From Candidatus Saccharimonadota bacterium (GTDB lineage Bacteria; Patescibacteriota; Saccharimonadia; Saccharimonadales; JAICHO01): 33,581 bases of DNA. Positions 5,244 through 27,859 of this stretch are shown piece by piece. The notes under the pieces were generated by a model, which saw only the letters and a program-made list of their open reading frames with translations, did not search any database and was not told where the DNA came from. A program made the translations under genes and the position numbers. Each line of letters starts with the position of its first letter. Position 1 is the stretch's first letter. Where the stretch lies: assembly GCA_025924835.1 (NCBI GenBank), contig JAICHO010000007.1, positions 1-33,581 of the forward strand, in the 5' to 3' direction.

Positions 5244-5311
5244 ATGAGACACCTGGAAGGTTTCTCATCGCGCGGGCAAAATGGAATACATTTTGTCCGG
5301 CTGCTTTTCCC
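5244..5311 (+). repeat. Two-hairpin dispersed repeat, copy 1
   Basis: Hairpin 1 ATGAGAcACCT-GGA-AGGTtTCTCAT, then CATCGCGCGGG, then CAAAATG-GAATA-CATTTTG and CCGGCTGCTTTTCC. Shared with copies at 7733-7812 (-) and 26865-26931. Confidence 0.75.
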
Positions 5312-5374
5312 GAAAACCACTGACCATTAACGAATAAGAAGGAATTTAAGTTTAAGAAGTAAGGAGAATATTTT

Positions 5375-7705: not shown

Positions 7706-7732
7706 CCTGAAATATTATTCTTGCCCGAAATA

Positions 7733-7812
7733 GGGAAAAGAGCAGCGTGGGCAAAATGTATTTCATTTTGCCGGAGCGATGACGGGGTCCCCATAAAACC
7801 TGTTTTATGGGG
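7733..7812 (-). repeat. Two-hairpin dispersed repeat, copy 2 (inverted)
   Basis: Perfect CCCCATAAAAC-CT-GTTTTATGGGG (7789-7812). CAAAATG-TATTT-CATTTTG (7752-7770). The reverse complement matches copies 1 and 3 over TCATCGC..C..CAAAATG.AATACATTTTG....GCTGCT.TTTCC. Confidence 0.75.
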
Positions 7813-25689: not shown

Positions 25690-26778
25690 ATGAATATGCA
25701 TAAACACAATGTTAAATCCGACCAAAACGGTTTGGTGTCTATCATTGTCACCATTATTATCATGATCGTCCTGAGCTTAATTGTGCTGGGCTTTGCCAAG
25801 GTCAGCCGGCGCGAACAACGCCAAAGCCTGGACAGACAGCTGACTAGCCAAGCATACTATGCCGCCGAAACGGGTATAAATGACGCACAGAAGTATATAA
25901 AAGACCAGTTGGCGCTACCATCTCCACCCCCTCCGTCTGCCTATACGTTTACTCAGTGTCAGGGCCCGGCGTCCTTTACGAACGTCTCGGGGATTAGCAA
26001 CGTAGTTAACGGCACAACTTCTTATTCGTGCGTTTTGGTAGATCCTAGCCCGGAGCAACTTATCTGGCAGCGCATAAATGCCAATAACAGTTTGGCGTTT
26101 CCGTTTAAGCCCAGTGGCCCAATAACTGGCATGACCTTTTCATGGCAAGATGCCGATACGCTCGCGGCAAATTATGGCGGTTGTCCCGGCGCTTTGCCTG
26201 CGTTGCCGTTCGTACCCCAAACCAGCTGGACGTGTCAAGCAGGTGCATTGCGGGTGGACGTAACGCCTGTAAGTGGCGCTGTAGACCGGGCTGGACTCAT
26301 CAGTAATACTAAGAACTTTATTCTGTACCCTCTTAATGGGGGTCCCAGCACGTTTGCCTATGGCAGCGTGGGGAAGGGCGACATTATCCCAGTAGGCTGT
26401 GCCGCCGTGGCTCCAACGCCAGCTACCCCGCGACACTGCAATCTGACGCTCACGGGTCTGCCAAGCGGTGATTATTTTGTCCGCATCCGACCGGTTTATC
26501 GGGCTGCCGTTATAGAAATGGCTGCCGTACCAACCGCCGGGACGGTGACACTTACTGACGCGCAAGCGGTTATAGATGTGACAGGCAAGGCCAACGATAT
26601 CTTAAAGCGAACCCAGGCCAGGGCTTCCATTAGTCGCATTGACAGTATCACGGACAACACAACCCTGGATTACACCATTCAATCAGTAGACAGTCTCTGT
26701 AAACAGTATGCCATTATACCGCCCTCTACCGTTACCCCTACCAATTCTACGCCAGATTCTAGTTGCACCTTCCCTTGA
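25690..26778 (+). CDS. PilX-like minor pilin component
   Basis: QNG^LVSIIVTIIIMIVLSLIVLGFAKVSRREQRQSLDRQLTSQAYYAAETGINDA: hydrophobic N-terminus without Glu5, plus the YYAAExGI motif typical of PilX N-terminal domains. Confidence 0.75.
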   Translation: MNMHKHNVKSDQNGLVSIIVTIIIMIVLSLIVLGFAKVSRREQRQSLDRQLTSQAYYAAETGINDAQKYIKDQLALPSPPPPSAYTFTQCQGPASFTNVSGISNVVNGTTSYSCVLVDPSPEQLIWQRINANNSLAFPFKPSGPITGMTFSWQDADTLAANYGGCPGALPALPFVPQTSWTCQAGALRVDVTPVSGAVDRAGLISNTKNFILYPLNGGPSTFAYGSVGKGDIIPVGCAAVAPTPATPRHCNLTLTGLPSGDYFVRIRPVYRAAVIEMAAVPTAGTVTLTDAQAVIDVTGKANDILKRTQARASISRIDSITDNTTLDYTIQSVDSLCKQYAIIPPSTVTPTNSTPDSSCTFP

Positions 26779-26794
26779 AAGTGCGTGTTTGTCG

Positions 26795-26860
26795 CTACTC
26801 GCCAGCAGGAGTTCTATTATGAAATTTCAAATGGACAGCCTTGAGGTGGGGATCAATAAC
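26795..26860 (-). pseudogene. Remnant of a Xer-type recombinase 3' end (21 codons plus stop)
   Basis: The minus strand encodes VIDPHLKAVHLKFHNRTPAGE*. The intact gene ends VTDPHLKAVHLRFHNKPASNE*. 14/21 residues are identical, with many codon-level differences. Confidence 0.8.
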
Positions 26861-26864
26861 ACTC

Positions 26865-26931
26865 ATGAGAGAACCTAGGTTCTCTCATCGCGCCGACAAA
26901 ATGGAATACATTTTGGCGGGCTGCTCTTTCC
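26865..26931 (+). repeat. Two-hairpin dispersed repeat, copy 3
   Basis: Perfect 24-nt palindrome ATGAGAGAACCTAGGTTCTCTCAT (26865-26888), then CGCGCCGA, CAAAATGGAATACATTTTG, GCGGGCTGCTCTTTCC. Confidence 0.8.
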
Positions 26932-26935
26932 TGGG

Positions 26936-27859
26936 CTACTCGTTAGAAGCGGGCTTATTATGAAACCTAAGATGAACCGCCTTGAGGTGGGGATCGGTTA
27001 CGTGGGTGTAAATCTGGGTGGTTGCCACATTGCTGTGCCCCAGCAGCGCCTGTACTGACCGCAAATCGGCACCGTTCATAAGTAAATCAGTGGCAAAACT
27101 GTGCCGTAGTGTGTGGGGGCTGACGTGCTTGGTGATACCAGCCATCAGGGCATAACGGGCCACCATGCGTTGCACGCTGCGGGCGGTCAAACGGTGAAAG
27201 TTACCTGTTAAATCGACTTTTTTCTGACCGCTGTAGCGTATAAAAAGCGGGCGCGTATTGTCTGTGCGCTTATCTATATAACGCTCTAACCAGGTAGCCG
27301 CATCATCACTGATAAATATCGGCCGATCTTTTTGCCCCTTACCACGCACCATAAACTCGCGGCGCTTAAGATTGATATGGTCTTTGTCTAAACCCACTAA
27401 TTCAGATACCCGCAGTCCGGACGAAAATAGTAACTCCAAGATAGCTCGGTCACGCAGTCCGTTCACGGTAGCAATGTCAGGCACGGACAGTAGGCGTTCT
27501 ATTTCTTCTGCCGATAAAAACGTTACTTGCTTGCGCGTTGTGCGCGCCAGTTCAACCTTGTCGGCTGATAGCGCTGGGACATCACGCTTGGCACAAAATT
27601 TTAAAAAGCTCCGTAGTGCTATCAGGTGATAATTTTGGGTAGTTTTTTGCAATTCGTCACTGGTGTTGGTACCCAAGCGGTTCAACCACAGACGCCATTT
27701 TCGAATCAGCTCAGCATCAATATCTGCTACTTTTATATCACCGGCAAAATCAATCAGCCGGGTCAGGTAATGATCGTAGTTGGCGATAGTTTTTTGTGAA
27801 CGGTTTTGTTCTATCTCCAGATATTCCAAAAAATCAGTTTTAGCTTTAGCAAATAGCAT
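26936..27859 (-). CDS. Tyrosine recombinase XerC/XerD-like
   Basis: SAM-like N-terminus; GLRVSELVGL, HTLRHSFATDLLMNGADLRSVQALLGHSNVATTQIYTHV catalytic motifs. Confidence 0.95.
   Translation of the reverse strand: MLFAKAKTDFLEYLEIEQNRSQKTIANYDHYLTRLIDFAGDIKVADIDAELIRKWRLWLNRLGTNTSDELQKTTQNYHLIALRSFLKFCAKRDVPALSADKVELARTTRKQVTFLSAEEIERLLSVPDIATVNGLRDRAILELLFSSGLRVSELVGLDKDHINLKRREFMVRGKGQKDRPIFISDDAATWLERYIDKRTDNTRPLFIRYSGQKKVDLTGNFHRLTARSVQRMVARYALMAGITKHVSPHTLRHSFATDLLMNGADLRSVQALLGHSNVATTQIYTHVTDPHLKAVHLRFHNKPASNE

Follow-up and report, generated by a model that had tools for sequence, protein, structure and literature searches.

A small structured element beside displaced gene ends in Saccharimonadales

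Two xer tails and the parts of the locus

The window, by which we mean the whole stretch of 33,581 nucleotides that was analysed, comes from a 1.01-Mb genome that is 95% complete and has its nearest relatives among Candidatus Saccharibacteria and Saccharimonadales records. A PilX-like pilin gene (25690..26778, plus strand; Pfam PF14341) and an intact xerC-like tyrosine recombinase gene (26936..27859, minus strand; PF00589 and PF02899) converge here, and the same convergent pilX–xer order, with a short gap, is found in most relatives. Reading from the pilin gene, the gap in the window contains a displaced xer 3′ end (26795..26854, minus strand), a junction or spacer (26855..26864, plus strand; 2–23 nt in other cases) and an element on the plus strand. 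The element consists of hairpin 1 (26865..26888), with a purine-rich 5′ arm and a pyrimidine-rich 3′ arm, hairpin 2 (26890..26921) and a pyrimidine tail, CTCTTTCC (26924..26931). Both hairpins are supported by their fold (z = −5.8 for hairpin 1) and by covariation. The covariance model matches 26865–26934 with 86.7 bits and spans the gap between the two xer tails, leaving 4 nt to the end of the remnant reading frame and 1 nt to the xer stop codon (26936–26938).

The displaced end is a direct repeat of the last 20 codons of the intact gene (26936–26995, minus strand), which constitute the replacing gene end. The two tails (26794–26854 and 26935–26995) align without gaps over 61 nt with 77% identity, and the repeat is well beyond chance (E = 4.9 × 10−7, whole-genome search). 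On the minus strand, the remnant reads (V I) D P H L K A V H L K F H N R T P A G E before its stop codon and the working tail reads V T D P H L K A V H L R F H N K P A S N E before its own. A previous sequence-only reading had described a diverged duplicate of the xer 3′ end on the minus strand at 26795–26860, separated from the intact gene by a palindromic element. Both claims held, with the correction that the uninterrupted DNA match stops at the Asp codon (26852–26854) and not at the Val codon. The Val–Ile codons (26855–26860) are perhaps junction sequence, because Thr follows this Val in the relatives seen. A further claim, that the fragment evolved as coding sequence, is weak for xer by itself; 6 of the 14 differences are at third positions, a slight excess that does not prove recoding at this locus alone. 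Both tails share a Leu in the motif HL[KR]FHN that occurs in none of the listed relatives’ tails (mostly Glu, VHE[KRQ]FH), and the two therefore come from this lineage and have a shared ancestor.

Synteny establishes which of the tails is native. In relatives, the convergent gap between xer and the pilin gene has a median of 9 nt and is no longer than 30 nt in 59 of 72 cases. The stop codon of the remnant lies 16 nt from the pilin stop codon and that of the working xer lies 157 nt away. The remnant is thus at the position at which xer usually ends in relatives and is therefore the native tail, with the working tail and the element as the newcomers. A tail-motif screen of approximately 100 relatives’ xer loci found no second xer tail, so that a decayed tandem xer paralog, which the sequence-only reading had listed as an alternative, is unsupported. 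Its other alternative, recombination with a foreign xer allele carrying the element, is no rival and is the likely source of the new tail; no donor of this tail was found in 392 genomes of the order, in which the element alone was matched. In one relative (L111), pilX and xer are separated by a degenerate element copy and there is no second tail; a donor could have had an allele of this kind.

Three observations concern other xer genes. The xer–pilX gap of L138 carries a second palindrome family (see below). One public MAG (JAJZOE01, MAS4.bin52) has three different xer–pilX loci (L091, L116 and L136), which suggests a mixed bin. In a relative (G021, contig C8; L339:298–2481, minus strand, approximately 69897–72080), the gene for a XerC-like recombinase contains an in-frame intein with Intein_splicing and LAGLIDADG_3 domains, located within the catalytic motif HTLRH/SFAT.

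Structure and distribution of the element

The element is a dispersed structure of approximately 70 nt in which hairpin 1, hairpin 2 and the pyrimidine tail follow one another in that order. Among 35 diverse copies, both sides had changed in 15 of 25 pairs, a level of covariation that was reached by no shuffle. Searches with the covariance model found approximately 26 copies in the window genome and recovered the element from 77 of 148 sampled Saccharimonadales genomes, with a maximum of 30 copies per genome. In a phylum-wide sample of 287 genomes, it occurred outside the order in only one (G560), in a shorter form. This genome, which belongs to another group of the phylum, has four copies of the short form (L322 and L328), with the stem GAGGGAAGG and the tail CTCCCATCC, which hints at a wider superfamily.

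Two other copies are present in the window. One (5244..5314, plus strand) is situated 4 nt past the stop codon of an ssb-like gene, and the other (7732..7794, minus strand) is damaged, its hairpin 1 having been overwritten by another palindrome. This second palindrome family, GGGG-TCCCC ... AAAAC-GTTTT ... GGGG, lies inside hairpin 1 of some copies as a repeat within a repeat, and was seen within element copies at L196 and L068 as well as at 7732–7794.

No family in Rfam 15 was matched at the gathering score; the best weak match of the element was 11 bits, and the sole match in the window was a tRNA. The element core had no exact match in IMG/VR. The literature searched, which did not extend to most subscription journals, contained no description of such an element from Saccharibacteria or Patescibacteria. 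Integron attC sites were considered and set aside; variants of hairpin 1 without AAC/GTT exist. We regard the element as a candidate for an undescribed family of structured RNA or DNA.

Position by position, the purine arm of hairpin 1 is matched in parallel by the pyrimidine tail (A to T and G to C, with one base skipped). The match is exact in 89 of 125 copies. Over 44 distinct combinations of tail and arm, the mean is 6.61 of 8 positions, compared with 5.63 ± 0.14 after shuffling (maximum of 6.14 in 5,000 shuffles). The pattern is that of a pyrimidine third strand, with the caveat that C opposite C–G pairs is not canonical; the triplex itself is no more than a possibility, inferred in the absence of probing or a solved structure.

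Of the 134 copies collected for flank comparison, 24 follow a same-strand gene at a distance of −1 to 8 nt from its stop codon, and several of these are followed by what appears, when read by eye, to be an ordinary terminator. A role for the element in 3′ untranslated regions is therefore plausible. Some copies occur a few nucleotides from the 5′ ends of tRNA genes, in divergent orientation (L157, L165, L166 and L253), and the order gene–element–tRNA-Arg recurs in two families.

Duplicated gene ends on either side of the element

The 134 copies were taken from the better-scoring matches, and the two flanks of each were compared for mutual repeats. Duplicated flanks were found in 27 copies, over 14–61 nt, with the repeats starting 2–23 nt from the 5′ edge of the element and 0–30 nt from its 3′ edge; in the shuffled control, 15 of 2,656 flank pairs reached the same score before any position filter. 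The polarity is constant in all 27 cases, with the working gene end 3′ of the element and the displaced one 5′ of it. Matches of 14–21 nt are individually weak. The genomes are mostly MAGs, although assemblies with two to five contigs (G066 and G084) show the pattern as well.

With few exceptions, the repeats are ends of protein-coding genes; that at L206 resembles the 5′ end of a tRNA. The window genome has two other genes with duplicated 3′ ends flanking an element, fmt and uvrD, and in other genomes we found duplicated 3′ ends of uvrD (twice), alaS (twice), cobA (twice), mmcQ, leuS and a C-terminal processing protease. Gene 5′ ends are duplicated at tpiA, lepA (twice) and a cysteine-desulfurase-like gene (from translations), under the same polarity rule and with the element in the sense orientation. 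At least 15 different genes are targeted. The match does not continue past the stop or start codon, beyond which the bases are unrelated, as at L211, where a match of 53 out of 54 positions is followed by 11 unrelated nucleotides. No core motif shared by the junctions of different targets was visible among the approximately 27 insertions, by inspection only. The other 107 copies have no duplicated gene end, and the gene-end process may therefore not be the usual route by which the element spreads.

The native context of the displaced copies is shown at two genes in addition to xer. In G041, a displaced lepA start with a promoter-like leader is followed by the element, a new ribosome-binding site and the recoded start. 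Its sister genome, G011, is free of the element at lepA and has a single start for this gene, preceded by the leader that is found at the displaced start of G041. Of the 47 positions in the duplicated stretch, 41 agree with the displaced copy and 37 with the working copy. As the empty site resembles the displaced copy more closely, the displaced copy is the native one. In G084, the sequence downstream of the displaced end of uvrD is similar to that found in relatives. Displaced copies are thus in their native context by synteny at xer, by the empty site at lepA and by downstream sequence at uvrD. The sequence-only reading had proposed that, at the xer locus, an insertion into the 3′ end of the gene had restored the reading frame and displaced the original tail. 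This is supported by the spacing at xer, by lepA and by 26 further copies with the same arrangement beside displaced gene ends, and it proved to be general; the comparison with an empty site that it had suggested was possible for lepA and not for xer.

Differences between the two copies are largely silent. In 24 coding cases, third positions account for 69 of 106 differences, and of the 88 codons that changed, 62 did so synonymously (this set omits L245 and L206, which are below the ORF cut-off, and L249 was mis-typed as a 5′ end). The third-position share exceeds the expectation for free drift of the displaced copy (at most approximately 50% by our own estimate; P = 0.001). This implies that coding constraint acted on both copies during their divergence and hence that they diverged in different genomes, and the proposal of evolution as coding sequence that was weak at xer is supported across genes. 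The differences are also unevenly placed, with 74 of the 106 on the element side, and in the ten most diverged cases the mismatch rate increases along the repeat, from 7.5% by the far junction up to 28% where the gene ends. At cobA (L259), 26 identical nucleotides are followed by 7 changes in 22 nt, every one of which is silent, and at lepA (L194) there are silent differences in 11 codons.

Candidate mechanisms and known systems

We propose a recurrent process in Saccharimonadales in which the element and a foreign, synonymously diverged gene end enter the same gene end and are joined to the gene body by homology-facilitated illegitimate recombination (HFIR). The structure of the element, the one-sided rule, the native context of the displaced copies, the coding-type divergence and the fall in mismatches towards the far junction are shown; the enzymatic steps are an inference and no donor of the xer tail has been found. 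We favour the process as a whole by a modest margin. In outline, the structured non-coding element of approximately 70 nt would arrive with a short foreign copy of the target’s gene end on its 3′ side. The new end would be joined in frame to the resident gene body, leaving the gene intact, and the resident end would be shifted to the 5′ side of the element, where it would remain as a remnant in its native context.

The constant order of element, gap and gene end, together with the one-sided identity, points to a molecule with a homologous 3′ part and a 5′ end that is set by the element. We infer that incoming single-stranded DNA, comprising the element and an orthologous piece of the gene end, may anneal at the orthologous gene and that its 3′ end would be extended into the gene body. 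The 5′ end, blocked and protected by the hairpins, would be joined to the arriving strand without being trimmed, and the hairpin would set the position of the illegitimate joint. Natural competence has been shown for cultured Saccharibacteria (PMC10633639), although not for the organism of the window, and HFIR in natural transformation joins one homologous end and one illegitimate end (PMC3240628). The gene ends described here resemble products of HFIR in having one joint made by homology and the other without it, with an identical tract on the gene-body side and no visible homology at the other joint. They differ in that the illegitimate joint of HFIR is not tied to a repeated element, whereas here it is always 2–23 nt from the 5′ edge of the element. 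Points against the model include the missing donor of the xer tail, the 107 copies without a duplicated gene end and the greater frequency of Y1 transposase genes in element-bearing genomes, which it does not predict.

By the proposed process, selfish or regulatory DNA could enter essential genes (aminoacyl-tRNA synthetases, helicases and lepA) without harming them, bringing a working, recoded end, and the displaced native ends would be fossils of gene transfer in ultra-small bacteria in which gene exchange is poorly understood. Cultured Saccharibacteria are transformable, and the mechanism is therefore open to direct test. A bolder reading, which we lean slightly against, is that this is a new class of mobile DNA, in which an enzyme-less, non-coding element that forms hairpins and possibly a triplex spreads between species, carrying an orthologous gene end as both homology arm and repair patch. 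Its structure would keep the free 5′ end from being trimmed while the DNA is taken up, and insertion into essential genes could then occur without loss of function. To our knowledge, no small repeat has been described that swaps gene ends as this element does, and harmless entry by way of a recoded gene end is not known except for integrase-coding elements such as e14 in icd.

An alternative that we consider unlikely is a tiny or reduced site-specific integrative element, for which a recombinase supplied in trans would join a circle whose attachment core is the gene end, as with e14 in icd. In its favour, the outcome at icd is the same, with a 165-bp 3′ end duplicated with 12 changes, of which two are conservative amino-acid replacements (PMC11148124), and prophages target gene 5′ ends too, for example Rac at ttcA (PMC6379469). 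Against it, the junctions of different targets show no shared core on inspection, a separate core would be needed for each of at least 15 genes, and the insert is non-coding and only approximately 70–100 nt long, with no longer form seen. The likeness to e14 (and phage 21) in Escherichia coli icd is that an insert inside the gene 3′ end supplies a recoded working end while the old end remains beyond it as a duplicated remnant (PMC11148124, PMC6379469), and the element shows in-frame end replacement of this type. A further trait of that system, a site-specific integrase of its own, is lacking in an insert of only approximately 70 nt; e14 is a prophage of 15 kb that codes for an integrase and has a single site, whereas the Saccharimonadales insert is structured and non-coding and occurs at many genes, including their 5′ ends. 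There is a real chance, although no more than a chance, that the element and its gene-end swap form a new class.

Single-strand transposition by a RAYT-like Y1 transposase, which would nick at the 5′ side of the element and carry adjacent sequence (one-ended transposition), is also improbable. In its favour, 36 of the 77 element-bearing genomes have RAYT-like Y1 genes, compared with 6 of the 71 without the element (P = 1.5 × 10−7, uncorrected for phylogeny), and the element has a hairpin structure whose 5′ side is fixed. However, the element is absent near 21 RAYT-like genes in 20 loci (E up to 1), some RAYT-like loci carry inverted palindromes of their own, the published description of RAYT genes has them invariably flanked by their own REPs (PMC2817692), and PF01797 has no match in the window genome (95% complete) despite the approximately 26 element copies. 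REP/BIME sequences with RAYTs are likewise short palindromic elements dispersed between genes; the element differs in having two unlike hairpins and a tail in a fixed order, in lacking RAYT flanking and in carrying recoded gene ends. By the defining test of RAYT flanking, it is not a REP/RAYT system, as shown for the 20 RAYT-like loci. At L305 and L309 (G126 and G127), RAYT-like Y1 genes have inverted palindromes of their own on both sides, which form a separate REP system.

We consider RNA-templated insertion, in which an RNA of the element and an antisense or sense gene end would be reverse transcribed at the target, to be very unlikely. The fixed order, with the structured element 5′ and the homologous gene end 3′, is as for an RNA with a 3′ targeting segment. 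However, reverse transcriptases are not enriched (14 of 77 genomes with the element compared with 16 of 71 without), the window genome has no reverse transcriptase (RVT_1) match, and the carried gene end has diverged, so that the source of the RNA would lie elsewhere. Diversity-generating retroelements have a gene 3′ end and a non-coding copy beside a hairpin, a likeness to the xer locus. This candidate was rejected: the differences here are mostly silent and not confined to adenines, and the genome lacks an RVT_1 match.

Ordinary duplication, by decay of a tandem xer paralog or by a long target-site duplication upon insertion of the element, would account for an element flanked by duplicated gene ends and for the near-identity of young cases, but is very unlikely given that tandem xer genes are absent from approximately 100 loci, that homology halts at the stop codon even though the element lies up to 14 nt beyond it, that the divergence is of the coding type, with a third-position share above that of free drift, and that L259 has its 7 silent changes in 22 nt directly beside 26 identical nucleotides.
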